NCBI RefSeq assembly: GCF_027941955.1 | Contig: NZ_CP115960.1 | Location: 1,550,001 to 1,614,000 of the forward strand | Direction of reading: 5' to 3' | Length of the DNA stretch: 64,000 bases | Source: Sphingomonas sp. 7/4-4 | Lineage (GTDB): Bacteria > Pseudomonadota > Alphaproteobacteria > Sphingomonadales > Sphingomonadaceae | Shown here: positions 35,988 to 64,000 of the stretch, piece by piece | How the letters are laid out: every line of letters starts with the position of its first letter | How positions within the stretch are numbered: the stretch's first letter is position 1 | The notes under the pieces: model-generated | Databases searched by the model: none | Told to the model about the DNA's origin: nothing | The model's input: only the letters and a program-made list of their open reading frames with translations | Position numbers and translations under genes: made by a program

Positions 35988-36845
35988 TCACCGCAGCTGG
36001 CATATGTCGAGAACGTCCATGTCGTTATAGTCGAGGTTCTCGCCGGCCATCGCCCAGATGAAGGCGTAGTTGCTGGTTCCCGCGCCCATATGGATCGACC
36101 AGGGCGGCGAGATGACGACCTCTTCGTTCTTCATCACGATGTGCCGCAGATCGTCCGGCTGCCCCATATAGTGGAAGACGCAATTGTCCCCATCGAGGTC
36201 GAAATACAGATAGATCTCGGAGCGTCGCTCATGAACGTGCGGGGGCATGGTGTTCCAGACGCTGCCGGGCTCGAGCCGGGTCAGGCCCAGGCACAGCGAG
36301 GCGCTCTGGCAGGTGTGCGGCAGGATCAGCTGATAGATGGTCCGCTCGTTGGATGCCTCGAGACTGCCCCGCTGCAGCGGCTCGATATCGGCGGCAGTGA
36401 TCTTGCGGAGCGGAAAGGCGGCGTGCGCCGGCACCGACAGGAGATAGAAGCGCGCGCCATCGCCGGAGAAGGTGACGTCACGCGATCCCATCGGCACATA
36501 CAACGCTTCGTACTTCGCCAGGCGAACGGGCTCGCCGTCGACTTCGACCAGGCCGTCGCCATTGCCGATATTGACCACGCCCAGCTCCCGCCGTTCCAGC
36601 AATGGGTGTCCGGCGGCGCTCTCAGGCTCGCTCTGGTCCGGAAGACGAAGCACGCCCCCGGCCGGAACGGCACTCCCGATCACGAACCGCTCACCGTGCG
36701 AATAGGTCAGCACGATCTCGCCTGCGCGGAAGAGACCGGTCACCAGATGGCGATCGCGCAGATCCTCGTTCGAAGCGCCATGCATCATGTGCGGATGGGC
36801 GGCGTAGAAGGTCTTCTCGTACAGGGTCGCTTCTCCGGCCGTCAC
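35988..36845 (-). CDS. kduI: 5-Dehydro-4-deoxy-D-glucuronate isomerase, copy 1
   Basis: KduI isomerises the 4-deoxy-hexosulose uronate released from unsaturated uronides to 3-deoxy-D-glycero-2,5-hexodiulosonate. The 285-residue cupin has the metal ligands in [15 protein letters not shown] (two His and a Glu) and a third His in [11 protein letters not shown]. It ends [20 protein letters not shown], the KduI terminus. GTG at 36845 overlaps the GH105 stop (GTGA). A second copy lies at 54732-55570. Confidence 0.95.
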
Positions 36846-37990: not shown

Positions 37991-38040
37991 GGGGTTTCCT
38001 TCAAATCGGCGGAGGAGTCCGGCCTCCATCCACCCGCCTC

Positions 38041-38083: not shown

Positions 38084-41043
38084 TCAGAAACGACCGCGGA
38101 TGCCGAACGAGATCGTCGTTCCGTTGAAGTACGAATTATCGCGTCGGCTCTGGCCGTTGCCGTCCGGCTGGGTCGGGTTCTCGTAGTAGAAATAGACATT
38201 CTCGTTCGTGATGTTCAGCGCGTCGATGCGCAGCTCGAAGAGATCGTTGAGCTTGTAGCTGATCGTCCCATCGAGGAACCCCTGCGGGGCGAGATAGGGG
38301 ACCTGGTCGTTGCCGGTATTTTGCGAGTTCTGGCCGGTCTTCGCGCGGTAATTATACGAGCCGCGGATCGATAGCGGGCCCTTCTCGTAGAACGCCGTCA
38401 CGCTGTACGCATAGTCAGGAACGCCCTGCATCGAGATGCGATCGCCATTCCTCAGAACGAAATCGTCACCCTGCTGGTCGATCAGCGTGAAGCTGCTGGT
38501 GATGCCCAGACCGTCGAAGGGCTTCGGCAGGAACGTGAAGTTCTGCTGATAGGCCAGCTCGAGGCCCTTAAGCTTCAACTCGCTTTGGTTCACCGTGATC
38601 GTACGGTCGAACAGGAAGTTGGGATCGATGGTGCTGCCGCCGAGGGCGGGAGGACAAGCTCCGGCGCCCAGCGAAGCGCAGCTGAACAGGTTCGAGGGTA
38701 TGCCCAGCGTGCCGAACGGCACACGTTCGATGATCGAGAAGGGACGATCGACGATGTTCTTCTGGAAAACACCGGCGCTGAGCAGCCCTCCGGTCGAGAA
38801 ATACCATTCGAGCGCCGCGTCGTAGGTCGTCGCGAGCTGCGGTCGCAGGTCGGGATTGCCGACGGTCACGGCGGGATTGAAAATGTTCGGCACCCGGGTG
38901 CCGGCCGCGATGGTCGCCAGCGAACCGCGCGTGAGCGTCTGGCCGGCGGCCCCCGCAGTACGAGCTTCGGGGTGATATCGAAGGTCAAATTCGCGGACGG
39001 GAGGAAGTTCTGATACCCGCCTTCGCGCTCTGCGGGGACGAATCCGACGCCGCCGGGGCCCGTCTGATAGTTGTTGATCAGCGTTCGGGTATCCGAAAAG
39101 CGAAGGCCCCAGTTGATGCGCAACGGGTGACCGGCGATCGGGATCTTGAAGCTGGTCTCGAAGAACGCAGACTTGACGATCTCCTCGGCCGTGAACGCCT
39201 GATTGAGCGCGGGTGTCGCCGCACGATTGGCGGCATTCGCGTCGAGGACGTTCATCACGAAATCGCGCGAAAAGGTCGCGAATTGCGACGGGTATCCCGA
39301 GTTGCCGCCATTGGCCAATTCACCGAACTGGACGAAGGGATCCATGTTCGCGAACACGCCGGTCGGATTGGTCGCGAACGTGCCCCTTGCGGAATCGGGC
39401 GGGTACTGGCGATGCTGCTGCCGTCCTGCCGCTGGACCCGCTTGGTGGTCGACACATAGCTGCCGCCCAGCTTGAGCGAAAGCAGCTGGTCTCCGCTATC
39501 GATCGGGGTCCAGTCCAGCACTGCCCGGGCAGTCTTTTCCTTGTCGAGCTCGTCGTTGATCGCGAAGCCGAGTGAGGGTGACCGATAGTTTGCGGTATTG
39601 GTGAAGTCGACGGGCGAGCTGATCGTCGGATAGGTCACGTTTCCGGTCGGATCGAAGGTCGTCGTGATGCCGAAGATGTTCGAGACGATCCGGTTCTCGG
39701 AATAGACCGCCTTGCTTTCGCTCAAGTTTGCTTGCGCCGAGAGCTTCATCGTGTCGGTGACGTCATAGGCCGCCCGGACGATGCCGTATTTGAACTTGGT
39801 CTTCGTGTCGCGGTAGAAGCTCTCGGTGAGGATGCTCGAGTTCCCGAAAGTGCCGTACAAATTGTTGTACTCATCGAGGTGCACGTCGAGCGGGATCAGG
39901 CCGGAATTGGTTCCCGTGCCGGGGGCACTGGTGGTGCCCGCAACCGTCCGCGAGTTGCGCACGGGCACGCCGAAAGTGAACTCGTCGGTCTGATCGGTCA
40001 GTTCGGAGAAGATGCCGTCGATGCTCGCTTCGAAACGGTCGCTCTTGTACTGAAGCGACCCGACGAAACCAAGGCGCTCGCGTTCCGTGTTGGAAGCGTA
40101 GATGCGATAGAAGCGCGGAAGATAGCCGTTTTCCACCTGCGAGCGCGTGAGACCGCCCAGATTGGCCAGCGGGCTGTCGAGGTTGAGCTCGAAATTAAAC
40201 GGTCCGCTGGTATTCGGGAGCACCGGATTTGCCGGAGTCGCGTAATAGGGCCGACGACCGAGCGCCGACGAGTTGTAACCGCTGGTGCCGCCGCCGGTCG
40301 ACTGGAAGCCGGAACGCTGGTTGACGTTCTTGGCATAGGCCACGCCGAACAACGCGCCGAAATTGCCCCACGTATCGCTGAGCAGCAGCGAGCCGCGCGG
40401 ACGCCACTCCTTGGACTGTGTGTTGTAATTGGCCTGCGCCGTATAGCGGATCACCCGCTCGTTGTTGTCGAAAGGGCGCGGCGTCTGCAGGTCGATAACG
40501 CCGCCGATGCCGCCTTCCTCGAGATTGGCGAGCGGCGATTTGTACACGTCCACCCGGCCGAACAGTTCGGACGGGAATACGTCATAGTTGAAGTCGCGGC
40601 TCGAACTGCCGACGTTCTGCGCTGAAGTCGTGCGGACGGGCGCACCGTTGATCGTCGTGACGGTGAAGTCGGAACCGAGGCCGCGGATACTGATGCGCTG
40701 GCCTTCGTTCGACGCCCCGTCGCGCGACAGGATCACACCCGGAATACGCTGCAGCGAGTCGGCGACGTTCGCCTCGGGAAACTTGCCGATATCCTCGGCG
40801 ACGATCGAGATCGCGGAAGCTGATCGATTCACGCTTCAGCTCGACGGCCTTGTTGAGGCTGCCGCGAAAGCCAGTGACGACGATGTCATCCGCGGTGCCC
40901 GCTTCGTCCTGGGGATCGGCTGCGGGCGCATCCTGCGTCGTGGCGGGAGCCGGCTCCACGGCCTGCGCGAAAGCCGGTGCGCCGGCGAGCATGATAGCGA
41001 GAGCGCCGGCCGAGGCGGCGCATGTAAGAGCGTATTTTCCCAT
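38084..41043 (-). CDS. TonB-dependent receptor 2 (three frameshifts)
   Basis: A 986-residue receptor after repair. The signal peptide is MGKYALTCAASAGALAIMLA, cleaved near AFAQ. The TonB box is DDIVVTGFRGSL, and the plug has AEDIGKFPEANVADSLQRIP and SIRGLGSDFTVTTINGAPVR. The barrel ends FGIRGRF. Frame changes occur near 40820 (one extra base), near 39403-39411 (one missing) and at the C run 38950-38954 (one missing), and conserved barrel sequence continues across each. It belongs to a different subtype from receptor 1. An intrinsic terminator follows, and two operator-like sites lie 45-90 bases before the start. Confidence 0.9.
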
Positions 41044-47223: not shown

Positions 47224-50200
47224 CTATTTCCGCGCGACCGGCCCGTGGAAATCGACCTCGACCACGCCCAGCCGCCAGCCCGGCGGCACGGCGTCGGCGC
47301 CGGTGTCTCCCGCCTTGCGCGAGGTATCGAGTTCGATGACCTTGCCGAAGGCGTCGCGATCGGCGACCGGACCGATCTGGGTGATGCGGAGCACGCTGCC
47401 TGTGGCCGGGGCGAACGTCACATTGGCATAGCCGAGCTGGCGCTCGGTCTCGCCTTCCCACACCGTCTTGCCGTCGAGCGTGATCCGCAATTTGTAGCTG
47501 CGCGAGCGCCAGCCGACGAGCTTCAGGTCGATCTCGCTCAGCGTCGCGGGGGCGGCGAAGCGATATTCGATCCACGCCGAGCCGGGCTGGCCGTCGCTGG
47601 TCCAGCGAGAGAGCTCGTTGTCGTCGGTGCTGTTCACCGCCTCGCTTTGGTTCGATCCCGCGACGATCGATGCGGGCATGACGGTGGTGCGGCTGAAGGT
47701 GAACGAGGGGCGCGCGGGTGTCGGCCCCCGGGTGAGCAGGCCGAGCTGGTGATCCTCGGGGAAGTCGACCGATAGCCCGCCGGTTGCGGGCTTCACTGCC
47801 CTGGTCGGGATCGTCAGCGTCGCGCGCTTGAGCCCCGGCGCGGTTGCGGTGACACGCACCACCCCGCGGCCGGTCCCCGCGCGGAGCAGCACGCGGTTGA
47901 CCCCGGCCTCGACCGGCAGGTTGGGCGAGAGGATGTAATTGTCCTCGCCTCGCGCCGTGCCCGCATATTGCGTGGTCTGGTCGGCGCCCGCGGGCTTGGT
48001 CGGCTCGGCCGGACCCGCCGCCACTACCGCGCGCGACTTGCCGGAGGAATCGCCCTGCGCGATCCCGCCGCGCCATTCGGCGGGGCCGTCGAGCGTGAAC
48101 TTCACCATGTCGTGCGCGGTCGGCACGCGCCGCCCCTTGGCGTCGATCACTTCGACATCGACCAGCGCGATATCCGCGCCGTCCATCACAAAGCCGCGCG
48201 GCGATACATGCGGCGTAAGGCGCAGCGCGACCGGGGCGCCGACCGTCTCGACGGCGCTCTCGGACTTGCGGCCATCGGCATAGGTCGCCACCGCGCGGAG
48301 CGTACCCGGCGCCCATTGGACCTGCTTCCAGCCGAACAGGAAGCCGTTGCTGCGCTCGCCTCTGCCCAGCGAGCGGCCGTTCAGGAACAGCTCGACGCTG
48401 TCGCCATTCGAGATGACGGTTAGGTCCTTGCTCGTGCCGGGCGCGTAGTTCCAATGACCGATGATGTGCGTGCGCGGGGTGACGCTGTCGACCCAGTCGC
48501 TCCACATCACCTGGTGCGCATAGAACCCCTCCTTGGGCAGCCGCACTGCGTCGACTTCGCCCGAGCGGCGGTAATTATTGTCGCCGCGATAATGGGTGTT
48601 CGAGTCCGACCAGATGATGTTGACACCGCCCGAACTGACGCGCTTTCCGGTGCCCGGGCGGACGCGGTAGTAATCCCACCAGCGCTTGACGTCCTCGATC
48701 GCGTGGCTGTCCTGGTTGCGGTTATAGTCGGGCGAGTCCTTGTGGAACGGCGGGGTGAGCTCGTCCTGGTAGAGCCGGGCGCCCTCGTCGCGCGAATATT
48801 CCATCGCCCAGACCGGCTTGATGGCGCTCTTGTTGATGTAGAGCATCTCGCCGCCATATTCCGCGACCCTGCTGTCGAGCATCTCGCGCGATCCGATCGC
48901 GCGGCCGCCATGCGGGTCGTACTGGTCGCGGATCGCCTTCAATTCGGCCATGTGCGCGTCGCTGATATTTTCGTTGCCGCCCTCGTAGAACAGGATCGAG
49001 GGGTTGTTGCGATTGTAGACGATCGCGTCGCGCATCACTTCCTGCGCTGGTCCCAGCGGCGGCCGGTGACGTCGCTTTCGGCATCGCCCGCGGGCATCGC
49101 CTGGATCAGGCCGACGCGATCGGCGGATTCGACGTCCTGCTTCGACGGCGCGATGTGCATCCAGCGGACGAGGTTGCCGCCGCTCTCGACCATCAGCCCG
49201 TTGGAAAAGTCGCTGAGCCAGGGCGGAATCGACACGCCGACCGCGGGCCATTCGTTCGAGGTGCGCTGGGCATAGCCGTGCATCTGGATCACGCGGCCGT
49301 TGAGGCTGACCATGCCGTCGGCGAACTTCGTCTGGCGGAAACCGGTGCGGATATCGACGCTGTCGATGGCCTTGCCGTTCTCGGTCAGGATCGTGGTTAC
49401 GATGTAGAGATAGCCATAGCCCCAGCTCCAGAAATGGAGGTTTTCTGCAGTGCCGGCGGCCGTGAGCAGGCGCGTCTCGCCGGGCGCCAGCGTCGCGTCG
49501 CCGCCGTCGAGCCGGCGGACGACGCGGCCATCACGGTCGCGGATTTCGGCGCGGTAGCCGATCTTGCGCGAAGTCGCGCCGGCGTTGCGGATCTGGGTCT
49601 GCGCATGGATCGTCGCGGTGCGGGCCTTCACGTCGAATGCGTCGGCCCAGACATATTGGCCAATAGTGCCCAGGCCGGAGAAGAGCGGCAGCGTCTGATA
49701 GACCGGGCCGGTCAGGTGCAGCCGGACATTCTTGGTAATGCCGCCATAATTGACGTCGAAATTGTTGTTGTTCCACTGGAAGCCGCTGCCGGTCGCGCGC
49801 TCCTTGTACTTCCAGTCATTATCGACGCGGACCGCGATGAGGTTCTCGCCGGGCCTGAGCGCCGCGGTGATGTCGGCGCCGAATGCCATCGAGCCGTTCT
49901 CGGAAAGCGCGACCGACTGGCCGTTGACCCAGACCTCCGCCGCCTGACGCACGCCTTCGAACTCGAGGAAAGCGCGGCCGCCGGGACCCTGCGCGGGCAG
50001 GACGATCCGCTTGCGGTACCAGATGATGCCGGTCGAGAGCTCCTTGATGTCGCGCGCGAACGCTTCCTTCTCGTTGAAGGCATTCGGTAGCGTGACGTCG
50101 TGCCATTGGCGATCGTCGAAGCCGGGCTGCTCGGCGCCCGCCTGCTCGCCGGTCGTCGATCGCCAGCCGGGATTGAGATTGTACGTCGCGCGCGGCGAGG

Positions 50201-50288
50201 CGACTGCAGTCGACGCGTCGTGTGCGATCGCCGGGACTGCAACGGTCGCGAGGAGCATGCCAAGCACGGCACAGATAGGCTTCAACAA
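47224..50288 (-). CDS. Exported GH2 glycoside hydrolase with C-terminal accessory domains (one frameshift)
   Basis: About 1021 residues, a different GH2 subtype from the gene at 42176. TTG at 50288, preceded by GGGAGGG, gives a signal peptide ending AIA-HDAS. The sugar-binding domain (WHDVTLPNAFNEKEAFARDI) and immunoglobulin-like domain precede the barrel. The acid/base Glu is in NNPSILFYEGGNENISD and the likely nucleophile in KPVWAMEYSRDE. After the barrel come a DUF4982-like domain (TRTHIIGHWNYAPGTSKDLT) and an F5/8 type C-like domain (SRWTSDGQPGSAWIEYRFAA). One base is missing near 49040 (QRREVMRDAIV). It may act on galactose, glucuronate or another uronide; subtype alone does not decide. 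The start site lies about 26 bases from an operator-like ACTTGTC. Confidence 0.87.
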
Positions 50289-50313
50289 GACACCCTCCCA
50301 ATTGGTCAGGCCA

Positions 50314-50324
50314 ACTTGTCTTAT
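50314..50324. promoter_or_regulatory. Operator candidate D (ACTTGTCTTAT)
   Basis: Matches the ACTTGTC core of sites B and C, about 26 bases upstream of the GH2 gene start. It is the weakest of the four, differing after the core. Confidence 0.35.
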
Positions 50325-50361
50325 CGGCGCGACACCTGTCAAGCCAATGTGGAAACCCGTC

Positions 50362-51312
50362 TCACAAATTGGGAAGCCAGCCGTGGCGGCCGGCAAAGAG
50401 GCGGAAGAGATCGAACCAGATGTACGGCTTGCCGTCGGCGTCGAAGAGCGGAATGCCGTGCCCGCCCTTCTCGGCGATCATCAGCTCGGACGGGATACTC
50501 GCCGCCTGCAGCCCCGCGAACATCGCAAGGCTGTTCGCCGGCTTGACGGTCTTGTCGTCGGCGGCGTGGCAGACGAGGGTCGGCGGCGTCGCGGCGGGCA
50601 CGTCGAGCTCGAGCGACCATGATCGGGCCAACGCCTCGGAAGGATTGACGCCGAGCAACTCGCGACGCGACTGGTCATGCGCAATCGGCGGCAGCATCGA
50701 CACCACCGGGAAGAACATCGCGACCGCGATCGGCCGCGCGGGCAGCCGATCGGCGGCATCGATCGAATCATAGGTGACCTTGTCGGCGCGGGTGCCGAGC
50801 GAGCCCACTACGTGCCCGCCCGCCGAAAAACCCATAGCGGCGACGCGCGCGGGATCGATCCCCCATTTCGCGGCGCCCGCACGGATCAGCCGCATCGCGC
50901 GCTGCGCGTCCTGCAGCGATGTCGCCGGGCCGGCACGCCAGCCGTCGTGCGGCAGGCGGTAAAGCAATTCGAACGCCGTGATTCCCTGTGCGGCGAACAT
51001 CTGCGCGATCCTGCCCGGCCCACGACCCACCGCGACCCGGGCATAGCCCCCGCCCGGAATGAGCAGCACCGCCGCGCCACTGGGCTTGGCGGCGCGCGCG
51101 ACGGTCATCGCCGGCGTGCCGATATGCGTCCAGGCGATGTCGTCCGGCTTCGGCGAGCGTGGAACGGTCACGTCCGCGATCCCCAGCCCCTCTCCGCCCG
51201 GCGGCGTGCCCGGCCACAGCGGCACCCGCTCGATCTCGGCCGGCGCCGATGCACGCGCGGCACCGGCAATCCCCAATGCAAGCCCGGAAGCGAGGACGGT
51301 ACGACGATCCAT
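50362..51312 (-). CDS. Exported alpha/beta hydrolase, acetyl-esterase-like
   Basis: A 316-residue esterase with Tat-like signal (MDRRTVLASGLALGIAGAARA). The oxyanion motif is LLIPGGGYARVA, the nucleophile elbow GFSAGGHV, the acid CHAADDKTVKP and the base KGGHGIPLF, the BD-FAE/acetylxylan-esterase pattern. In this cluster it probably strips acetyl groups from the polysaccharide in the periplasm. It lies just upstream of the second GH2 gene on the same strand (74 bases between). Confidence 0.9.
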   Translation of the reverse strand: MDRRTVLASGLALGIAGAARASAPAEIERVPLWPGTPPGGEGLGIADVTVPRSPKPDDIAWTHIGTPAMTVARAAKPSGAAVLLIPGGGYARVAVGRGPGRIAQMFAAQGITAFELLYRLPHDGWRAGPATSLQDAQRAMRLIRAGAAKWGIDPARVAAMGFSAGGHVVGSLGTRADKVTYDSIDAADRLPARPIAVAMFFPVVSMLPPIAHDQSRRELLGVNPSEALARSWSLELDVPAATPPTLVCHAADDKTVKPANSLAMFAGLQAASIPSELMIAEKGGHGIPLFDADGKPYIWFDLFRLFAGRHGWLPNL

Positions 51313-52823: not shown

Positions 52824-53831
52824 TCATCGACGAACGTCCAGTCCTCCGCCTTCGAAGGCCGCCAGATCGGCGCGCGTGAACAGGCTGGCGTCACCGGGCA
52901 GCGAGTGCTTGAGCGCGGTCAGCGCCAGGCCCGCCTTCGCGGCGGCACGCGGGTCGCCGCCGCTTTCGATGAGGCCGTGCAGCACGCCTGCGGCAAAGGC
53001 GTCGCCCGCGCCGATCCGGTCGACGATGCCGGCGATCAGCACTTCGTCGGTCTGGTGCGCGCCGCCCCGCGTATCGACTCGCGCCGAGAGCCGGTGGCTG
53101 TCCGCATCGTCGACGTGCCGCGCAGTGGATGCGATCGTCTGGAGCTTGGGGAAATGCGCGAACGCAGCCTCCGCCGCCTCGCGCCGCCGATCCGAGCCTT
53201 CGCCCGAAAAGGGCTTGCCGAGCAGCAGCGAGACGTCGCGATGATTGCCGAACAATATATCCGCATGCCCGATCAATCGCGTGAGCACCGCGCGCGGATC
53301 GCTGTCCCAGGCTTCCCACAGCTTCGCACGGTAATTGCCGTCGAACGAGACCGGGATGCCCTTGGCAGACGCTGCCTCGGCGGCGGCGATCGCCGCATCG
53401 GCAGTGTTGTGGCCGAGTGCCGGAGTGATCCCCGACAGATGCAGCCGGGTGGCGCCTTCGAGCAGGCGGTCCCAGTCCCAGCTGTCGGCCGGGCGCGTGG
53501 CGAACACCGAATGCGCGCGGTCATAGACGACCTCGGAAGCGCGGAGGCCCGCACCCGGAGTGAGGAAATAGAGGCCGAGACGGCCCTCCTCGCTCGCCAC
53601 GGTCGACGTATCGACGCCGCGCCGGCGCAGTTCGTTGATCACCGCGCCGCCCAGTGGATTATCGGCCACCGCGCTGATCATGCGCGTGGCATGGCCGAGG
53701 CAGGCGAGGCCGGTGGCGACATTCGCCTCGGCGCCGCCGACATTCACTTCGAGCTTGGGCGTCTGCAGCAGAAGCTCGCGCCCGGGCGGCGAGAGCCGCA
53801 GCATCACTTCGCCGAAGAATGCGATGGTCAT
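52824..53831 (-). CDS. kdgK: 2-Dehydro-3-deoxygluconokinase
   Basis: KdgK phosphorylates 2-keto-3-deoxygluconate (KDG) to KDPG for the Entner-Doudoroff aldolase. It is a 335-residue PfkB-family kinase: IAFFGEVMLRLSPPGRELLL start, EVNVGGAEANVATGLACLG, and the catalytic anion-hole motif DRIGAGDAFAAGVLHG. ATG at 53831 overlaps the kduD stop as ATGA. Last gene of the hexuronate operon. A KDPG aldolase gene was not seen in the window. Confidence 0.93.
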   Translation of the reverse strand: MTIAFFGEVMLRLSPPGRELLLQTPKLEVNVGGAEANVATGLACLGHATRMISAVADNPLGGAVINELRRRGVDTSTVASEEGRLGLYFLTPGAGLRASEVVYDRAHSVFATRPADSWDWDRLLEGATRLHLSGITPALGHNTADAAIAAAEAASAKGIPVSFDGNYRAKLWEAWDSDPRAVLTRLIGHADILFGNHRDVSLLLGKPFSGEGSDRRREAAEAAFAHFPKLQTIASTARHVDDADSHRLSARVDTRGGAHQTDEVLIAGIVDRIGAGDAFAAGVLHGLIESGGDPRAAAKAGLALTALKHSLPGDASLFTRADLAAFEGGGLDVRR

Positions 53832-54583
53832 CGTGCCAGCCACCCGCCGTCGACCGCGAGGACATGGCCCTGGACATAGTCCGAAGCGCTGGAGGCGAGG
53901 AACACCGCGGCACCGCCGAGGTCGCCCGGATCGCCCCAGCGGCCGGCGGGGATACGCTCGATGATCTGGCGGTTGCGGGTCTCATCGGCCTGCAGGGCAG
54001 TCGTGTTGTTGGTGGCGATATAGCCGGGGGCGATCGCGTTGACGTTGATGCCCTTCGACGCCCATTCGCAGGCGAGCAGCTTGGTCAGCCCCGCCACGCC
54101 CGATTTGCTCGCGGTGTAGCTCGGCACGCGGATGCCGCCCTGGAAGCTCAGCATCGAGGCGATGTTGATGATCTTGCCGCCGCCCTGCTTGACCATGTGG
54201 CGGCCGGCGGCCTGGCACAGGAAGAAGGTGGATTTGAGGTTGGTGTCGATCACCGCATCCCAATCCTCCTCCGAGAAATCGAGACTGTCGTTCCGCCGGA
54301 TGATCCCCGCATTGTTGACAAGGATGTCGAGCCCGCCGAGCTTTTCCACAGCTTCGTCCACAATTCTGCCCACAGGCTCGATCGTCGAAAGGTCGGCGGA
54401 GATGATCTCGGCCTGCACGCCCAGAGCGCGGGCCTTTTCGACCGTTTCGGTGGCGGCCGAGCGGCCCACCGCGGCGATGCTCGCGCCTGCTTCGGCGAGC
54501 GCGAGCGCGATGCCCTGGCCGATGCCGGTATTCGCACCGGTGACGATTGCGACCTTGCCGGTCAGGTCGAAGGGATTGGTCAT
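53828..54583 (-). CDS. kduD: 2-Dehydro-3-deoxy-D-gluconate 5-dehydrogenase
   Basis: KduD reduces 3-deoxy-D-glycero-2,5-hexodiulosonate to KDG with NAD(P)H. A 251-residue classical short-chain dehydrogenase: TGANTGIGQG near residue 14, NNAG in DILVNNAGIIRRND, catalytic Ser in INIASMLSFQGG and YxxxK in PSYTASKSGVAG, ending DGGWLAR. ATG at 54583 has AGAGG upstream, right next to a palindromic repeat. It lies between kduI and kdgK, the order of the pathway. Confidence 0.94.
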   Translation of the reverse strand: MTNPFDLTGKVAIVTGANTGIGQGIALALAEAGASIAAVGRSAATETVEKARALGVQAEIISADLSTIEPVGRIVDEAVEKLGGLDILVNNAGIIRRNDSLDFSEEDWDAVIDTNLKSTFFLCQAAGRHMVKQGGGKIINIASMLSFQGGIRVPSYTASKSGVAGLTKLLACEWASKGINVNAIAPGYIATNNTTALQADETRNRQIIERIPAGRWGDPGDLGGAAVFLASSASDYVQGHVLAVDGGWLAR

Positions 54584-54593
54584 GCTACCTCTT

Positions 54594-54724
54594 ACTCCCT
54601 CCCTGGAAGGGAGGGGCCGGGGTGGGTGCGCGGCGCGCAGCGTCGCGCTTCTTCGGTCGCGGAGGAGGGCCGAGCCTGGCGGCTCGGCACCCACCTCCAA
54701 CCTCTCCCTTGCAGGGAGGGGAGT
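54594..54724. repeat. Long intergenic palindrome, ACTCCCTCCC family
   Basis: The arms near 54594-54618 (ACTCCCTCCCTGGAAGGGAG) and 54701-54724 (CCTCTCCCTTGCAGGGAGGG) are inverted copies. The centre holds further inverted pieces, including GCCGAGCC..GGCTCGGC (54669-54687). It lies inside the hexuronate operon, between kduI copy 2 and kduD, where its hairpin could tune message stability. Confidence 0.75.
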
Positions 54725-54731
54725 TAAGTCG

Positions 54732-55570
54732 TTACGCCAGCTGGCAGATGTCCAGCACGTTCATGTCCGTATAGTCCTGGTTCTCGCCGGCCATCGCCCA
54801 GATGAAGGCATAGGCCTTGGTGCCCGAGCCCATATGGATCGACCAGGGCGGCGAGATCACTGCTTCCTCGTTGGCGATGACGATGTGCCGCATCGCATCG
54901 CCTTCGCCCATGTAATGGAAGACGCGGTCGTTCGGGCCATCGAGCTCGAAGTAGAAATAGATCTCGCTGCGGCGCTCGTGGATGTGCGGGGGCATCGTGT
55001 TCCACACCGAGCCCGGCTTGAGCACGGTCAGGCCCATCACCAGTTGCGCGGAGTCGCACACGCCGGGGATGACGAGCTGGAAGATCGTCCGTTCGTTGGA
55101 TTCTTCCAGCGAGCCGCGCTCGAGCGCGTTGGCGTCGGCGATCGAAAGCTTCCGGGTCTGGAAGCCCTTATGCGCCGGGCAGGAGGCGAGGTAGAAGCGC
55201 GCGCCCTGTCCAGAGAATTGGACGTCCTTCGCCCCCATCGTGACGTAGAGGCAGTCCTTGTTGCCCAGCGTGAAGCTTTCGCCGTCGACGGTGACGGTGC
55301 CTTCGACCGAACCCACATTGACCACCGCCAGCTCGCGGCGCTCGAGGAAGGATGGCCCGCCGCCGAAGCCGGCTCGGTCTGGTCCGGAAGCTTCACCGAT
55401 CCCGCGCCTACCGCGACCCCGCCGATCACGAAGCGGTCGGCATGGGTGTAGTTGAGCACGCACTCGCCTTCGCGGAACAGGCCGTCGATCAGATAGCGGT
55501 CGCGCAGTTCCTCGTTCGAGACGCACTCCATCATGTCGGGGTGCGTGGCGTAATAGGTACGGTCGAACAT
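54732..55570 (-). CDS. kduI: 5-Dehydro-4-deoxy-D-glucuronate isomerase, copy 2 (one frameshift)
   Basis: The second KduI, about 279 residues. It starts [20 protein letters not shown]. After a missing base near 55348-55352 ([19 protein letters not shown]) it continues with the metal motif [15 protein letters not shown] and [11 protein letters not shown], ending [20 protein letters not shown]. Clearly homologous to copy 1 over its full length. This copy is in the operon with kduD and kdgK, whereas copy 1 is with GH105. Confidence 0.92.
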
Positions 55571-55594: not shown

Positions 55595-57042
55595 TCAGGC
55601 TGCGGCGGCGACAGGCGCCGGCGCTTGTTTGTCGATTTTGTACGCCCTGCGTACGAGGCCGTTGGTCAGCTCGTGCGCGAGCTCAAAAGCTTCCCAGTCG
55701 AGCAGCCGCCCTTCGGCGACGAGCTGGCCGAGAAAGCCGCAATCGATGCGGCGCGCGACGTCGTGCCGCGCGGGGATCGAGAGGAAGGCGCGCGTGTCGT
55801 CGTTGAAGCCGACGGTGTTGTAGAAGCCCGCGGTCTCGGTGACCTGCTCGCGGAAGCGGCGCATCCCCTCGGGACTGTCGTGGAACCACCAGCTCGGCCC
55901 CAGCTTGAGGCACGGATAATGCCCGGCCAAAGGCGCCAGCTCACGCGCGTACACCGTCTCGTCGAGCGTGAAGAGGATGATCGACAGATCGGTCGAGGTG
56001 CCGAAGCGATCAAGCAGCGGTTTGAGCGCATGGACGTAGTCGGTGCGCATCGGGATGTCCGCGCCCTTGTCGCGGCCATGGCTTTCGAACAGCCCCCATT
56101 ATGGTTGCGGAAGCTGCCGGGATGGATCTGCATCACCATGCCGTCCTCGGCCGACATCGCCGCCATTTCGGTAAGCATCTGCGCGCGGAACAGCTCGGCG
56201 TCCTGCGGGGTCCAGTTGTCCGACAGAATCGTGCGGAACAAGCGCTCAGCCTCGTCATAAGGCAGGTTGGCGGTGCGGGCCGTGGGGTGGCCATGATCGG
56301 TCGCGGTGGCGCCCGCCGCGCGGAAATCGGCGCGGCGCTTGCGGTGCGCGGCGAGATAGCCGTCCCATGACCAGACGTCCTCGCCCGTCTTCTCGGCGAA
56401 GATCTTCATCGCCCCGGCGAACTGCTCGTGCTCGACGTCGATCACGGCGTCGGGGCGATACGTGGTGACCACCCGACCCTGCCAGCCGCTCTTATGGATC
56501 GCGTGGTGCGGCGAGAGGTCGTCCTGCGGCCCTTCGGTGGTGGCGAGGAACTCGATTCCGAAGCGATCGAACAATGCGCGCGGCTTGAAGGCGTCGCTGG
56601 CGAGCTTCTCATTGATGCGGTCGTAATACAGGTCCGCCGTGCTCGCATCGAGCGCGACCTCGAAGCCGAACACCTCGGCAAAGACATGGCCGAGCCACAT
56701 GCTGGACGGCGTGCCGCGGAACAGATGGAAATTCCCGGCAAAGGTCCGCCACGCTTTCCTGGGATCGGTCCTCGGCATCCCCGCCTTGCTCGGCACGCAG
56801 AGATCGTCAAGTGCGACGCCCTGCGAATAGAGCATGCGATAGAGATAATGGTCCGGCGAGAGCAGCAGTTCGGTCGCGTTCGACCAATTGGCGTTGGTCG
56901 AGAACCAGGTCGGATCGGTGTGGCCGTGCGGGCTGATGATCGGCAATCCGGCCACTTCCGCATAGAGCGCACGCGCGATGCTCCGCGTACGCTCGTCGGA
57001 CGGAAACAACCGGTCGGGATCGAGTTTGAGGGGCTTGGTCAT
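55595..57042 (-). CDS. uxaC: Glucuronate isomerase (one frameshift)
   Basis: UxaC interconverts D-glucuronate and D-fructuronate (or galacturonate and tagaturonate). The start is ATG at 57042 ([20 protein letters not shown]). Metal and substrate motifs include [15 protein letters not shown] near residue 35, [34 protein letters not shown] and [15 protein letters not shown]. One base is missing at the C run 56093-56097 ([18 protein letters not shown]). The repaired length is about 482 residues. It supplies the saturated-uronate branch; uxuB/uxuA or uxaB/uxaA are not in the window. Confidence 0.94.
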
Positions 57043-57052
57043 TTCGCTCTCT

Positions 57053-58599
57053 TTACGCTTGCGGCGCCTTCTCGCGGAACACCGTGTTGGCGACAATCGC
57101 AAGGATCGCAATCGCGGCGAAGACGGCGAGGATTGCCCAGTAAGTGCCGGTTGCGAAGCAGGGAGAGCCGAAACCCATCCAAACGGGCACGCAACCTTCG
57201 ACATTCTTGCCCGAAGCGAGGAAGAATATCACGCCGGCGATCCCCGATGCGACCGAAGCGATCACGGCCCAGGGCGTCGAGCGCCGGAAGCTCTCCACGC
57301 GCGCCAGCCGCGGCGTGAGCAGATGGACCGACAGCACCGCGAGGAAATAGGCCGCGCCCGCCGCGATGAACATCGGCGCATAGCTGCCCACCCGATCGAG
57401 CACGTCTCCCGAATATTTGGAGAACAAGGCCCCCCGATCGCCCCCAGCGTACCGCCGATGCCGATCACCGCGCCCACCGCGAAACGCGGAAAGGTGTCCG
57501 ACGGGATCGTGTAGAGATTGGCCGAGAAGCCCTGGTGCGCCGCCGCGGCGATGCCGATGATCAGCACGCTCACCCAGAGATTGGGCACCGATGTGGCGAA
57601 CACCACCGGCAGCACGCAGAAGGCGCAGAGCAGCATGGTGAGCTTGCGCGCCTTGTTGACGCTCATCCCGTTCTTCATCAGCCGGCCGGAGAGCCAGCCG
57701 CCGGCGACGCTGCCGACATCCGAGATCAGATAGATGCCGCCCAATGCGAGCGCCGCTTCAGGCGTCGACCAGGTCTTGAGATCAAGGCCGTATTGCGCGC
57801 CGAGATAGCCGGGCAGCCAGAACAGGTAGAACCACCAGATCGGATCGATGAAGAACTTACCGAGCGCGAAGGCCCAGGTCTCGCGCTGGGCGAGCAGGCG
57901 CAGCCACAGGCCCAGAGTCTTGACGTCGGGATCGGCCGGATCCTGAGTGATGTGCGCGATTTCGGCCGCGCCGACGCGCGAATGTTGCGCAGGATTGTCG
58001 CGATACATCGCCAGCCACGCGACCAGCCAGAGCACGCCGAAGATGCCGGTGACGATGAAGGTCATCCGCCAGCCGACCATCGGGACCAGCAGGAAGCAGA
58101 GCAAAGGCGCTGCGATCGCACCGACGTTCGAGCCGGCGTTGAACACGCCGACCGCGAAGGCGCGCTCCTTTTGCGGGAACCAGCTTGTCACTGCCTTGAC
58201 GCCGGCCGGGAAATTGCCCGATTCGCCGATGCCGAGACCGAAACGGGCCATCGCGAAATGGGTGACGCTATAGGCACCGCCATGCGCGACGTGCGCGATC
58301 GTCCAGACCACCACCGCGGCGGCATAGCCGAGCCGGGCGCCGATCGCGTCGACCACCTTGCCGAAGCCGAGATAGCCGATCGCATAGGCGATCTGGAACC
58401 AGACGACGATGTCGGCATAGGTCCGCTCGTCCATGTGAAGCGAGGGATCTTCCATCATGATCGGCTTGAGCAGCCCGATCATCTGGCGATCGATATAGTT
58501 GATCGCCGTAGCGGCAAACAGCAGGCCGACGATGACCCAGCGATAGCGCCCCACCCGCTCGGCGGCGGCTTGTATCGTCGCCTCTCGCGTATCGCTCAT
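57053..58599 (-). CDS. exuT: Hexuronate MFS transporter, ExuT-like (one frameshift)
   Basis: An anion:cation symporter family transporter for glucuronate/galacturonate across the inner membrane. The start MSDTREATIQAAAERVGRYR leads into GLLFAATAINYIDRQMIGLL, typical of ExuT. Conserved loops include GLGIGESGNFPAGVKAVTSW and FPQKERAFAVGVFNAGSNVG. One base is missing at CCCCCC 57431-57436, and the last helices continue as LFSKYSGDVLDRVGSYAPMF. The C-terminal part has an extra hydrophilic loop with two Cys (GCVPVWMGFGSPCF) before the last helix, making it about 515 residues, longer than usual. The start overlaps the upstream frame as ATGA. Confidence 0.9.
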
Positions 58600-59990
58600 T
58601 CAGCCTCTCCCGCTGTTATTCGCCACCGGGTTTCCCGCTCGCGGCCTGGTTGGTTAGCTGCAACCCCCTGCCGTGGGAAGCTTCGGAGCATAAATTTCGC
58701 ATTTTGCGAATCGCTCCCAATATTCGGGATGTCCTGCAGGGGTTTACGGCCGTTGACCAATATTCGCGAATTGGCCTGACACAGCAAGCTACTATTGCTG
58801 CGTCGTGTCAGGCCAGCGAAACGGAGCCAGATCAGCGCCTCGGCGGCGCGGACGGCAGGGTCGCTCGCGATTCGTGCGAGATCAGTCTCGAATGGCGCGA
58901 AATAGGCCGGTACGCCCTGTAGCCGATCGAACTCGGCACGTGCCTGGTCGAGGCTCCAACGCCGGTGATGGATCCCGGTGTCGATCAGCGCGCGGACGAT
59001 ACGGAACAACAGCCAGTGGACATGGCCGAGTTCCTCGAGCGGCGTGCCGCGATAGATGCCCCTATCGGCCATCAACTGCTCGGCATGGATCGCCCAGCCT
59101 TCGGAAAATGCAGGGAGATAGGCGATACGCAGCGGGTGCGCGTTCGCCTCCGCCTCGATCGGAAGCTGAACCATATGACCGGGCAGCAGCTCGTGATGGA
59201 CGACGCTGTGGAGGCTCCAGCGCGGCCGGCGACGGATCTGCCTGAGGTCGACGACATAGCTGCCGGACTGGCCCGCCGACGGGATCTGGCGATAGCCCTG
59301 CTTTCCCGCGACTTCGTCGGCGCGGCTCATCCGGCGGACGCCGACGTCGAGGCTGGCGCGCGGCACCGGCCCGACCAGAGCCGGCGTCGCGGCGCGTGCC
59401 TTGTCGAGCCAGCGGTTCATGTCGGCCACTGCGGCATCGCGGCCGGCATCGTCGTCCGGATAAAGCCAGCGCGGATCGGCGAAGGCGGCCTTGAAGCGAT
59501 CGCCGATGCTGCCCTTCGCGAAACCCGCGGCACGCATCAGCCGGCCGGCACGCACCCCGAGGCGGGCGGCTTCGCGCTCAAACCGCCGATGCGCCGCTTC
59601 GGGATCGACGCGTTCGCCGACATGGCGTTCGAGCAGCAGCTTGTACGCCTCGGCGCCATTGGCGCGGCGCCAGAGTCCTGGCTCGACGGCAGGCGGGAGA
59701 CGGTACGGTCCTTCCGACTTGCCGTCGGGAATGAGGCGCGCCAGTTGCGAATCTATCGCAAGAGCGTTGCGAATGGTTCGCAAATCGAGACTCGCCGACG
59801 CCGACAGCGCGGCGACATCGAAAGCCTCGAGCCGCGCCAGCCGGGCATCATAGCCGGAGACCGCGCTTAGCCCATCCAGCGTCTCGCGCAGCTTCGCATC
59901 GGCGCCCGGCCCGGCATGCGCCGGCATCGCGTGGAGCGCCGCGCAGGCGGCGAGACCGCCCAGCACCTCGCGGCGGCGCAGCGCGATCAT
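58596..59990 (-). CDS. DUF885 family protein, exported; 3' end uncertain
   Basis: A metallopeptidase-like DUF885 protein of up to 464 residues with signal peptide (MIALRRREVLGGLAACAALH). Family motifs are HHELLPGHMVQLPIEAE (zinc-binding HExxxGH type) and AFSEGWAIHAEQLMADRG. Similarity seems to end near EALIWLRFAGL (about 58810); the last 70 or so codons are AT-richer, of unusual composition, and cover several palindromes. The natural end may be earlier, with a lost stop or frameshift, or the frame may truly run on to overlap exuT. ATG at 59990 overlaps the LamG-protein stop (ATGA). The role in this cluster is unknown. Confidence 0.78.
   Translation of the reverse strand: MIALRRREVLGGLAACAALHAMPAHAGPGADAKLRETLDGLSAVSGYDARLARLEAFDVAALSASASLDLRTIRNALAIDSQLARLIPDGKSEGPYRLPPAVEPGLWRRANGAEAYKLLLERHVGERVDPEAAHRRFEREAARLGVRAGRLMRAAGFAKGSIGDRFKAAFADPRWLYPDDDAGRDAAVADMNRWLDKARAATPALVGPVPRASLDVGVRRMSRADEVAGKQGYRQIPSAGQSGSYVVDLRQIRRRPRWSLHSVVHHELLPGHMVQLPIEAEANAHPLRIAYLPAFSEGWAIHAEQLMADRGIYRGTPLEELGHVHWLLFRIVRALIDTGIHHRRWSLDQARAEFDRLQGVPAYFAPFETDLARIASDPAVRAAEALIWLRFAGLTRRSNSSLLCQANSRILVNGRKPLQDIPNIGSDSQNAKFMLRSFPRQGVAANQPGRERETRWRITAGEAE
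58690..58814. promoter_or_regulatory. Operator-rich region upstream of the hexuronate operon
   Basis: An AT-richer stretch with several symmetric elements: TTCGCA-TTT-TGCGAA (58696-58710, perfect arms); CCAATATTCGGGA (58717-58729) and CCAATATTCGCGAATTGG (58757-58774), whose first 10 bases repeat exactly 40 bases apart; and the inverted repeat GGCCTGACAC..GTGTCAGGCC (58773-58782, 58805-58814). This looks like a regulated promoter, though it lies within the reading frame of the DUF885 gene. Confidence 0.55.
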
Positions 59991-62900
59991 CGACGCACTA
60001 CCGTGCCGAGCGGAAGCACATTGTTGCGCAGGGTGACCTCGCGACCGCCATCGGCCGGCGCCAGCCGCAACCGCAGCGTTTCGACCGCGACGCCTGCCGG
60101 CACCGTGAGGCGCACCCGCGCCTTCTTGGGCATGAGGTCCGTCGGTGCGGCGAGCGCCGCGATCTTCGTGGAAGCCACGGTGCGACCCGAGGAATCCTCC
60201 AGATAAAGCACACTGCCCGGCGCTGCCGCCGAGCCGAGGCTGTGCACGATGACGGTGAGCGCGCGGCCCTTCAAGCTTACATCGTCGACCCCGATGCCCA
60301 GATCGGGACGAGTCGCAGGATCCTCGATGGGCTGATCCAGCGTGAAATCGAACACGCTGGTCGCGCGCGGGGCGAACATCAGATCGGTAGCAGCGCTGCG
60401 TTCGAGCGGAAGCGGTCTACCCGCTCCCAGATCCGACCCGTCCGCCAGCGTCCCGGCGCGCATCGTCCAGCGCCCGGCAGCGACGTTCCAGCTGCTCATC
60501 TCGGCCCGTTGGGGCCGATCGCTCATATTGTAGGCGATAACGCGGAAATGCTCGCGCGTGGCGCCCGGCACGAGAATCGCGACCTGCTCGGCGGCGCCCG
60601 GCTCGGCGAAGCGCCAGCTGACGGTGTGTCCCGGATAGCTCTGGTTGCGCGCGAGCGCGATGCCGCCCAGCCGCTCGCGCTGGAGCAGTTCCTGCGGCAT
60701 CGAGACACGATCGGACCACCAATGTCCTTCGGTCATCATGTACATGCGGTTGGTCTTCTGGCCGATCGCGTCGCGGTGGAGATCGGCGAGCGGCTTGGTA
60801 TCCCCGCTCTCCTGCCACTGGACATAGCGACCGAGATCACCGCGGCCCTTGAGTGCGGCGGCCCATTGCCTGCCCTCGGGAAGTGCCGTCAGCACATTCT
60901 CGTTGAACTCGCCGACCAGCGTCGGTCCCCCAGCGATCCGCGAGGTCACCGGCACCAGATATTTGGCGTCGCCGGTGAAGCGCCACGCCGCCCAGGCCGA
61001 CTGGAGCGGCACGCTCGCCCCGCCGCCATCGCCCTTGCGCTCGGCGTCGCTGCGCCAGTTGATCTCGTTGGGGAAGCTCCACTTTCCGGCGGCGTCCTGC
61101 TTGCCGTGCGCGAGCAGCCCATCGACTAGCCCGGTGACCAGCCGCTTCGCCGAAGGATTGGCATTGTACACGCCCATCAGGATCGGGGTGTGCGTGACCA
61201 CCCAGCTATAGGGCTTCTGCCATTCCCACGGCCCCTCGCGGTACATTTTCCGTGCGCCGTACCAGTTGCTCGCGAAGTGCATGTGCCCCGCGGGATTGGG
61301 CAGGATGACGGTCTCCAGCCCCTTCACCGTCGCCAGCATCCGCTCGACCGAACGCGGCTCGCCCCAATTGAGGTAGAGCCGCGCCGCATCGGCGTTCATC
61401 CCCTCCTCATAGGCATGGAGCTCGTCGGTGGTGAGCACCCCGAGCCCGTTTTCCATCATGCCGTTCTTGTAGACCGCCTCGGTCAGCGCGCGGAGCGAGG
61501 CGTTGATCTTGTCGGGCTCGACGCCCATCAGCGCGAGGCCGGGCCATTGCTGGACGAGATCGACATCGTCCGAGAGTCCGCCGCCGAAATCGCCGAACGG
61601 CACCTGACGATTGTCGATCCACCAGTTCACGAATTCGCGGACGCGGCCGAGGTCCTGCAGCTGATACCACGCCCATTCGGGCACCCCGCCGGCGCCGGGG
61701 CGATCGTGGCGGCGGGCATCTTCTCAGGCGCATAGCCGATATCCGCCCAATAGCGCCGCCCCTCGACATGATCGGGATCGACCCGGAGCAGGTCGCCGAT
61801 ATCGGCATAGAGACGGCGATAGAGCCCCTCGCGCTGCGAAGCGGTGTGCTCCTCGACGAGGAAGGCCCAATTGTCCTTCACCTGATTGAAGCGATCGGCG
61901 ACATGCTCGGCCTTCGCCGCCTCGCGCGCCTTGAAGACCAGGCGCACGTTCATGCCGTCGAGCGATTGCGCGTCGAAGTCCGGCGCGGCGGAGGCGATCG
62001 TCAGATAGAGATTGTCGTTGGTCAGGATGCGATCGCGCAGATCGAGCCAGAGCGTGCGCGCCTGCCCCGGCTTCACCGAGATCGAGACATCGATCATGTC
62101 GCGGCCGGGCCAGATCGGATCCTTGACCCGGATGTTGAGCGCGATCCGGCCGGACGCGTCCGGCGTGGCCTTCAGCGCGGGGATATCGAGCGCGATGCCG
62201 TCGAGCCCGTCATGGCTGTTTTCCCAGCCGTAATTCCATGCGCGGGCAATCGGCTTGCCGGGATCGGCGGACCCGAAGCCCGAGGGGATCAGGACATGGA
62301 CGATCGGCGCCTCGCTGCCGCTGCGCACCGCGGCACCGGTGGCGGCGGCGCTGCCGGCAGCCGGGGCGGCGCTGCGCGCGCCGGCGGGGAGCGCGATCAC
62401 GGTGGCGCGCTCGTCGGCGGGATAGCGGCCGGCGATGAAGCGATTGAGATCGCGCAGGCCAGCGAGATCGGCCGCGGCGCCGGCATCGACGGTGTAAGCC
62501 AGCTTGTAGGTGCCCTTGGGCTCGGCGCCCTCGGTGATGTTATAGGCCCAGATTTCCTGAATCGGCTGTTCCTGCTCGCTGTTGGTGAAGCGCAGGACGC
62601 CGCTGGTGCGGGAGGCGAGATCGTCGACGCTGCGGACGACGCCTTTCGGCCGCTTTGCCAACGAAGCGAAGCTGTCGCCATCGGCGCTCCATGCGAGGTC
62701 GCCATAGGCCGCGCCGCGTATCTCGACTCGGTTGAACGCCTCGTTCGCGGGGATGCGGAGCGTGTAGGCCTTGCCGCCGTCGACATAGACGTTCCAGTCG
62801 GGCAGGTCGAAATAGTCGCTGCGGCCGGGCAGCCGCGAGCGGTTATAGACGCCGGGCCAGGTCGTCTCGGCGATGCCGTCCACGCCCTTCCACATCCATT

Positions 62901-63819
62901 CCTTGAGATCCTTCGCGTCGGCGAACTCGACCTTGCGGATGCTGGTGGCTTGCGCGGCGAGGAGCGGCGGCGCGCCGCGGGCCCAGCCGAAGCGATGGAG
63001 CCAGGCGGCGCGATCGAGCGGGGCCGGCGCCTTGGCGGCAGGCTCCGCACCGGCGGCAAGCTGCGCGACCGCATCGGCAGCGAGCAATTGGTCGTAGACG
63101 CGGACTTCGTCGAAATCGCTGCCGCGGGTGAAATTGTAGCGGCTCTGGACCTGGTGCGGCGAGAGCACGCGCGCGGCGAGGCCGAACTGGTCGAGCCCGG
63201 CATCGAGATCGGCGCGGGTCGTGTCTTTCGCGACGAGCTTGCCGTCGACGAACAGGCGCACGCCCTGTGTCTCGTCCCATCCGAACGCGATATGGTGCCA
63301 CGCGTCGGGTGCCGGAAGCGCGTCCATCCGCCACGAGACGCGGACGCGCGACAGGTTCGCATCGGTGACGAAGGCGTCGAAGCCGTGGCCGTTATAGTCG
63401 ATGCGCAGGAACGCCATGTCCCAGCTCGAATGATCGGCGAACCCGGCGCGGAAGATCACGAACGGTGCTTCGCCAAGCGGTTCGCGCGCGCGCCAGAAGA
63501 AGGACAAGGTGCCGCGCTGGGCGAGCATGTTGCCGGGCGCGGACCAGGCCAGATAGCCGTCGTCTGGCCAGCGCATCGCGGATCCGTGCGCGCCATCGGG
63601 CACGATCGCCATGCCGCTCTGGAAATTGGGCTGGGCGTCGCCCTTCGCGACTTCGGCGGCGAAGTCCTTGTCGCCGCTCGCGCGGAACAGGAGCTCCTGC
63701 GCCGAAGCGGGCGGCGTCAATGCCGTCGCGGCCGCGAGTGCCAGCAGCACGCGCGCGCGCGTTCCGATGCGAACCCGGGGATCGGCAGCCGCTATCGCCC
63801 CTGCCCGCGCCTCAACCAT
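59987..63819 (-). CDS. Large secreted LamG-domain protein, candidate polysaccharide-active enzyme (one frameshift)
   Basis: 1277 residues after repair. ATG at 63819 (GGAGAGA upstream) with signal peptide ending ASA-QELL. Residues about 60-250 form a LamG/concanavalin-like domain (GTLSFFWRAREPLGEAPFVI, VSWRMDALPAPDAWHHIAFG, RGSDFDEVRVYDQLL). A middle beta-rich part includes WMWKGVDGIAETTWPGVYNR. The C-terminal 560 residues start WAWYQLQDLGRVREFVNWWI and look like an (alpha/alpha) barrel: DFGGGLSDDVDLVQQWPGLA, MENGLGVLTTDELHAYEEGM, HMHFASNWYGARKMY, MTEGHWWSDRVSMPQELLQR. One base is missing at CCCC 61684-61687. I recognise no named catalytic family. Coupling to DUF885 and placement in the uronate cluster make it a candidate depolymerase or glycan binder. 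Confidence 0.8.
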
Positions 63820-63847: not shown

Positions 63848-64000
63848 TTACGAGGCGGTGATCGTGCACGTCACTTCGAAACCGTCGCCGAACCGGCATT
63901 CGACCCGGTCGCCCGGCTTGACCGGGTGGACGCCGGTGACCGCGCCGCTCGACACCCATTGCCCCGCCTGCAGCGCGATGCCGCGCGCGGCCATCAGCTC
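63848..64000 (-). CDS. FAH-fold hydratase (2-keto-4-pentenoate hydratase-like), C-terminal part only
   Basis: The last 50 residues of a gene entering from the right edge: AARGIALQAGQWVSSGAVTG, then VHPVKPGDRVECRFGDGFEV and stop TAA at 63848. This is the conserved C-terminus of the fumarylacetoacetate hydrolase-fold hydratases, which act on 2-keto acids. It would suit dehydration of a keto-deoxy sugar acid, but the active site lies outside the window. It ends 28 bases before the LamG-protein start on the same strand. Confidence 0.75.
   Translation of the reverse strand, partial: ELMAARGIALQAGQWVSSGAVTGVHPVKPGDRVECRFGDGFEVTCTITAS

Follow-up and report, generated by a model that had tools for sequence, protein, structure and literature searches.

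We describe here a gene of Sphingomonas sp. 7/4-4 lying on the minus strand at positions 59987-63819 of a 64,000-nucleotide stretch of DNA (contig NZ_CP115960.1, positions 1,550,001 to 1,614,000; hereafter the window), a location and strand in agreement with an initial annotation made from the sequence. In the window this gene, called below the LamG/barrel gene, consists of two minus-strand open reading frames (ORFs) in different frames: 61627-63819 (730 aa, N-terminal ORF) and 59987-61684 (565 aa, C-terminal ORF). In our best reading it represents a pectin-acting enzyme family that is unclassified by Pfam-A, NCBIfam and PDB sequences, and more likely a family of hydrolases than of lyases. We give a hydrolase acting on pectin-type glycans a probability of roughly one half, because of the nearest folds of its predicted barrel, its invariant carboxylates and its link with UxaC and UxaA. 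The family, the LamG domain, the predicted fold, the conservation and the genomic link were all obtained by computation.

Domains, predicted fold and conserved residues

Residues 87-252 of the N-terminal ORF (63064-63561, minus strand) matched Laminin_G_3 (PF13385; E 3.1e-11, 44.1 bits for a cut-off of 27.6), which confirmed the LamG domain of the initial annotation. A second copy of the gene in Croceibacterium (L076) also exceeded this cut-off with 45.9 bits. A Sec-type signal peptide is recognisable in intact relatives, so that the signal peptide annotated initially stands as a judgement by eye, made without a predictor. The C-terminal ORF (59987-61684, minus strand) encodes, according to the structure models, an (alpha/alpha)6 barrel, a beta-sandwich and a further beta domain.

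A search of genome contigs found 62 loci encoding relatives. In 57 of them the protein is encoded by one full-length ORF, 1243-1404 aa long when measured from the earliest possible start, and the five cut off by contig ends (L018, L036, L041, L058 and L061) were left out of the full-length alignment. Relatives occur in Sphingomonas and kin, Caulobacter, Brevundimonas, Nitrospirillum, Rhodanobacter, Pseudoxanthomonas and one metagenome-assembled genome (MAG) of a small phylum; in the small phylum of genome G299 the gene was found in one of six genomes, G299 itself. In Sphingomonas, 96/295 sampled genomes, roughly one in three, carry the gene, and 5/299 genomes of a phylum-wide sample match, including its own genome and one weak partial match. 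Three distant homologues were also found: the L059 genome carries two of them, L074 (560 aa) and L075 (787 aa), and a Sphingomonas the third, L089 (861 aa). L089 shares 29% identity with L074 (E 9e-54) and 24% with the Croceibacterium copy L076 (E 7e-12). Three alignments were prepared from these sequences: A1, with 34 of the 57 relatives after an 88% identity filter; A2, with 39 after a 93% filter; and A4, with 42 rows, comprising 38 of 51 sequences kept by a 95% filter, the window protein, L076 and, at 19-20% identity to the window protein, two of the three distant homologues, L075 being left out.

Apart from LamG, searches of Pfam and NCBIfam 20.0 with the broken form, intact forms and distant homologues gave only weak matches. 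The C-terminal ORF matched nothing in Pfam or NCBIfam and gave a single chance match among PDB sequences (E 0.56), and PDB sequence searches with this ORF, A1 and A4 returned nothing beyond chance matches; the initial description of this region as belonging to no named family was thus upheld in Pfam-A, NCBIfam and PDB sequences. When the part after LamG of 34 relatives was compared with Pfam, no family appeared in more than one relative, the best being CARDB (E 0.0017, 1/34). GH76 was absent from the Pfam matches at E<=1 of these relatives and of the window ORFs, and the GH88/GH105 model PF07470 and the PL10 Pec_lyase model PF09492 were unmatched by the same two sets. Profile comparison by hhalign gave no similarity to two local GH88 proteins or to the PL10-like or DUF2264 neighbours, in weak tests with 1-2 rows each. 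The protein may nonetheless belong to an existing CAZy family that has neither a Pfam or NCBIfam model nor a solved structure, and the three plasmid records that include it give only the uninformative name 'LamG domain-containing protein'. We consider this unlikely, since nothing beyond LamG passed a cut-off in Pfam-A or NCBIfam 20.0 or was found in PDB sequences, and no paper among those listed treats such a LamG/barrel protein in its title or abstract opening.

An AlphaFold2 model of residues 1-459 of the C-terminal ORF (predicted local distance difference test, pLDDT, 93.4; predicted template modelling score, pTM, 0.92) shows twelve main helices, the twelfth of only 8 residues, followed by the sandwich. 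The predicted barrel covers residues 1-340 (60665-61684, minus strand) and is supported by the VIA-align matches; the beta-sandwich, delimited by the secondary structure of the model, covers residues 355-452 (60329-60622, minus strand). A second model, of residues 252-1257 of the relative L003 from Sphingomonas gei (pLDDT 84.8, pTM 0.81), gave the order beta domains, helical linker, helical barrel, small beta-sandwich and further beta domain. The helical barrel, a guess in the initial annotation, is therefore present in both predicted models, and the comparison with CAZyme barrels proposed there as a check identified an (alpha/alpha)6 barrel nearest to GH76 and GH88, with identities of 5-10%. 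With VIA-align, the domain model matched GH76 best (Z 17.0, root mean square deviation (rmsd) 3.9, 281 residues aligned), then GH88 (3wiw, Z 15.5, rmsd 3.7, 287 aligned; 2fv0, Z 15.2), AprG (Z 15.0), epimerases (about 14), GH47 (13.8) and GH105 (13.4), rank 50 still reaching 12.7. Twelve helices and a Z of 17.0 over 281 residues place the model in the (alpha/alpha)6 superfamily, closure of the toroid being taken from the match. The whole model gave one Foldseek match judged credible, again to GH76 (4d4b, E 3.7e-3, TMt 0.50). A viral fold library gave nothing at E<=0.001, and PL12, PL15, PL17, PL39 and PL40 were not named among the best 50 matches of either VIA-align list. What can safely be claimed is a predicted barrel of the (alpha/alpha)6 type, which many sugar enzymes employ; no close solved family was found for this domain.

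We then consider the residues conserved in this barrel, numbered as in the C-terminal ORF of the window. Sixteen polar or aromatic positions are invariant in the 42 rows of A4 (W4, Q8, W21, W22, R26, D39, D40, W47, D87, H90, E93, R115, T318, D325, R326 and W357), nine of them charged (R26, D39, D40, D87, H90, E93, R115, D325 and R326). Seven of these charged residues fall within the three motifs quoted in the initial annotation (FGDFGGGLSDD, TTDELHAYEEG and GHWWSDR), which indeed proved near-invariant in the 57 aligned relatives. On the model, GDFGGGLSDD (61565-61594, minus strand), with invariant D39 and D40, lies at the start of helix 2 (37-52); TTDELHAYEEG (61400-61432, minus strand), with D87, H90 and E93, at the start of helix 4 (88-105); and GHWWSDR (60707-60727, minus strand), with D325 and R326, six residues before helix 12 (332-339). 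In an (alpha/alpha)6 barrel the even-numbered helices are all of one kind, inner or outer. Since the motifs stand at or just before helices 2, 4 and 12, they probably share one rim of the barrel, as judged from helix order. Such clusters also bear on whether the protein is an enzyme. With its LamG and several beta domains it might instead be a surface glycan-binding or scaffold protein in which the barrel has no catalytic role, and helical proteins perform SusD-like binding elsewhere. This appears quite improbable, given that the invariant charged clusters, probably on one rim, are found in a type of barrel that otherwise houses enzymes and are kept in the two distant homologues of A4.

Association with uronate and pectinase genes

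The genomic link was examined in Sphingomonas genomes and around the individual loci. UxaC was present in 96/96 gene-positive genomes and in 149/199 gene-negative ones (p 3e-10), and PL10 in 35/96 and 30/199, respectively (odds ratio (OR) 3.2, p 7.5e-5), while the control, GH10 xylanase, showed no enrichment (61/96 and 123/199, OR 1.08, p 0.80). Of the remaining 95 gene-positive genomes, at least 31 carry UxaC no farther than 11.5 kb from the gene, for a chance expectation of about 0.5% per genome; the presence of all 96 positives among the UxaC rows, and the rows sharing a contig, were checked by eye. PL10 lies within 11.7 kb in 6 of these 95 genomes.

For the locus comparison, record titles served to define a group of 25 Caulobacter-type loci; Brevundimonas and the Alphaproteobacteria MAG L024, which has similar neighbours, were counted among the other 37. 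Neighbours were clustered by blastp, so that genes of a single locus are unseen, and identified by a Pfam scan of the cluster representative or from the window gene. At least one of UxaA, UxaC, KdgK, KduD and KduI was found in the fetched flanks of 18 of the 37 non-Caulobacter loci, and any of these five or PL10, GH28 or a PaeX-like esterase in 21. Gene by gene, the counts were 10 each for UxaC and UxaA, 8 for KdgK, 7 for KduD and 5 for KduI. Two PL10-like proteins (L041:2500-4236, 579 aa; L062:16261-17895, 545 aa) cover only about half of the Pec_lyase model; the former, with 81.7 of 189.8 bits, is below the NCBIfam pectate lyase cut-off and both are possibly part of a divergent group.

In the window itself, the location in a uronate catabolic cluster was supported by the neighbours, all on the minus strand: UxaC (55595-57204; PF02614, E 3.8e-47), KduI (54732-55570; NF002091, over cut-off), KduD (53828-54700; TIGR01832, over cut-off) and a PfkB sugar kinase (52824-53843; PF00294, E 5.9e-34), probably a KDG kinase with no NCBIfam model over cut-off. 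The DUF885 gene (58596-59990; PF05960, E 4.3e-52), which belongs to what we take to be a putative metallopeptidase family, overlaps the LamG/barrel gene by four bases (59987-59990). The coupling noted initially was thus supported; DUF885 was found in 17/37 non-Caulobacter loci besides the window, nine of which show the same four-base overlap on one strand. Also on this strand are an MFS transporter (57262-58599; PF07690, E 3.3e-47), a PaeX-like pectin acetylesterase (50362-51312; NF041902, E 1.1e-72, 244.8 bits for 550, below cut-off), a GH2 protein in two overlapping ORFs (47227-50396; PF02837/PF00703 and PF16355/PF18565) and a GH88-type unsaturated uronyl hydrolase (36845-38029; PF07470, E 2e-68). 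The window has a second KduI, a DUF2264 gene and two GH2 genes. The second KduI directly adjoins the GH88-type gene (35991-38029), making two unsaturated-uronate modules in the window.

The initial annotation had described this cluster as lacking a recognisable lyase and had offered the LamG/barrel protein as a possible missing depolymerase or a possible new hydrolase family. The first statement did not hold, as the window edge cuts the cluster. Past the edge, on the strand of the LamG/barrel gene, lie an FAA-hydrolase-like gene (about 265-280 aa; L097:849-1649, starting within the window at 63848-64000), recognised by way of its counterpart in L008, then UxaA (L097:1823-3304), a TonB receptor (L097:6138-9095), a pectate lyase-like gene (L097:9384-10823; PDB 9buj, E 5e-45; PF00544 below cut-off) and GH28 (L097:10703-12184). 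The ORFs of the last two (C1:1622383-1625183) are situated 8.4-11.2 kb beyond the edge, and a PL10 gene is present elsewhere in the genome. Since pectate lyase-like and GH28 genes already belong to the same cluster, the LamG/barrel protein is not needed as a missing depolymerase and we rejected this role. FAA-hydrolase-like genes were found near the LamG/barrel gene in 11/37 non-Caulobacter loci; that of L008 shows weak similarity to 4-oxalocrotonate decarboxylase, and the gene could encode an unnoticed enzyme of the uronate pathway.

These neighbourhoods also bear on whether the protein might itself be a polysaccharide lyase. The same barrel would then carry out beta-elimination on a uronate polymer and feed KduI/KduD; H90 or some other residue would serve as the base, and the carboxylate would be neutralised by R326 or a metal. 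Consistent with this, KduI, KduD or KdgK is near the gene in 10/37 non-Caulobacter loci; kduI, kduD and a sugar kinase are present at a locus on a Novosphingobium plasmid, whose incomplete gene table lists no lyase, GH88 or GH105 within 15 kb; and the distant homologue L089 adjoins GH88, an enzyme acting after lyases. The PL40 ulvan lyase likewise has an (alpha/alpha)6 toroid, as described in PMC12915356. We nevertheless hold a lyase to be possible but doubtful: hydrolases and epimerases make up the nearest folds listed, the invariant residues are rich in carboxylates, UxaC and UxaA, which serve saturated uronates, are each more frequent at the 37 loci than KdgK, KduD or KduI, and the cluster already contains its pectate lyase-like gene. 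A hydrolase hence remains the preferred reading.

A reading frame broken at a C-run

The initial annotation gave the protein as a single ORF of 1277 residues, which was not borne out in the window: the span 59987-63819 counts 3833 bases, no multiple of three, and is read in the two frames given above. An unbroken ORF of exactly 1277 aa is found in the relative L011. Alignment with L002 (Root241), L011 and L003 showed that the window has one base fewer than these relatives at a C-run (61684-61687), where the frame is shifted. The N-terminal part of the broken gene, with the signal peptide seen by eye, LamG and beta domains, thus corresponds to 61688-63819 (minus strand), the ORF 61627-63819 being the true reading up to the frameshift, and relatives continue in one frame.

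Neither ORF contains an internal stop up to the break, and the ratio of non-synonymous to synonymous substitution rates (dN/dS) relative to L002 was 0.135 upstream and 0.15 downstream of it, indicating purifying selection on both halves. A sequencing error, or else a lesion of very recent date, would therefore seem to have split the gene. Uncompensated losses of single bases were also seen in three neighbouring genes, MFS (57430), UxaC (56095) and KduI (55350), which makes an assembly or sequencing error likely and the simplest account of the split at 61687; alternatively, a very recent real lesion may be its cause. The frameshift could also mark a true pseudogene in decay, but the absence of internal stops, the low dN/dS on both sides and the similar losses in the neighbours make this very unlikely. 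Two further genes of the window, GH2 (47227-50396) and a TonB receptor (38087-40832), are each likewise divided into two ORFs. With such repeated one-base losses at C/G runs the assembly seems indel-prone, and ORF lengths of this genome need care.

Proposed function and comparison with known systems

From these data we infer binding, catalysis, substrate and the choice of hydrolase over lyase as follows. The gene product would be a secreted or periplasmic multidomain carbohydrate-active enzyme, in which LamG and the further beta domains probably bind the polymer. The barrel, with the small beta-sandwich after it, would hold one active-site funnel, the lining of which would comprise D39-D40, D87-x-x-H90-x-x-E93 and D325-R326. 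Most likely, the substrate would be an acidic polysaccharide of the pectin type or oligosaccharides derived from it, in which a carboxylate pair from these motifs would hydrolyse a glycosidic bond, and the released uronates would pass to the neighbouring UxaC/UxaA and KduI/KduD/KdgK.

Several observations weigh against a pectin-acting hydrolase. The VIA-align matches of the domain model share 5-13% identity with it, and for mostly helical models arrangement alone typically yields a top Z of 14 and, at rank 50, values as high as 13; only GH76, GH88 and AprG stand slightly above this baseline. Foldseek gave no match for the domain model at E<=0.001, and the 15 PDB matches of the whole model at this threshold, with TM-scores of only 0.07-0.24 and large rmsd, were set aside as chance multidomain pairings. 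Sixteen of the 37 non-Caulobacter loci have none of the uronate or pectinase genes nearby, and such genes were found near 0/25 Caulobacter-type loci, some contigs ending close to the LamG/barrel gene. The presence counts across the 295 Sphingomonas genomes ignore kinship. Finally, one Sphingomonas plasmid copy lies beside a TorF porin, GH68 and an alpha-galactosidase, five other Sphingomonas loci have a tryptophan-halogenase-type gene nearby, and the second, divergent Croceibacterium copy (L076:5174-9205) stands between ORFs resembling by eye trehalase (GH37) and GH42.

Tentatively, and at somewhat less than even odds, the barrel may found a new CAZyme family, within a wider superfamily (L089, L074 and partly L075) marked by GG(G/K)xxDD, DxxHxxE and (S/T)DRV. 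The catalytic arrangement of the barrel could be one unseen in GH76, GH88 and toroid lyases, and the bond attacked, in pectin or a related acidic glycan, one that has no known enzyme. If active, the protein would bring a further enzyme family to the breakdown of pectin or acidic glycans by plant-associated and soil bacteria. Despite its occurrence in 96/295 Sphingomonas genomes and in several other genera, none of the libraries searched gives the gene a functional name. Its invariant residues offer a testable set, and the computed case is good enough for selecting the protein for expression.

Among known systems, PL40 was considered because of the sulfatases at the L089 locus. This locus contains two sulfatases, GH88, an enolase-type (MR/MLE) protein and GH28 (L089:2176-13120), with a UxaC gene about 15 kb off, a make-up that suggests use of a sulfated uronate polysaccharide. 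As described in PMC12915356, the PL40 ulvan lyase Uly1040 acts on a uronate substrate and combines an (alpha/alpha)6 toroid with a beta-sheet domain after it; its C-terminal beta domain of about 410 residues supplies the catalytic His, and His/Tyr catalysis is supported by Asp-His-Mn at the domain interface. Set beside this description, the predicted sandwich of the window protein has about 100 residues.

The unsaturated uronyl hydrolases of GH88/GH105 (3wiw, 2fv0 and 4xuv; Z 15.5, 15.2 and 13.4) have the same (alpha/alpha)6 barrel, and both the window and the surroundings of L089 include GH88 genes. Unlike them, the LamG/barrel protein is much larger and modular, and the 34 relatives compared with Pfam lack a PF07470 match. 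AGE-type epimerases and AprG (3wkf, 9lfi; Z 14-15) also share the barrel fold, at 5-13% identity. Their substrates are small sugars, and they are not known as secreted modular proteins.

The best fold match of the barrel remains the GH76 alpha-1,6-mannanases (BcGH76 5agd, Salegentibacter 6shd and CtGH76 9r4p; Z 17.0). The window protein differs from them by its 5-10% identity, the absence of a Pfam GH76 match, its additional LamG and beta domains and a context of pectin, not mannan. The Asp residues whose mutation inactivates GH76 (D125, D136/D137, and D163 and D164 in entry titles) interpolate, from range end-points only, to about residues 84-96 of the model. Located in this way and not by residue alignment, the equivalent stretch of the window protein has no Asp-Asp, but would hold D87, H90 and E93-E94.

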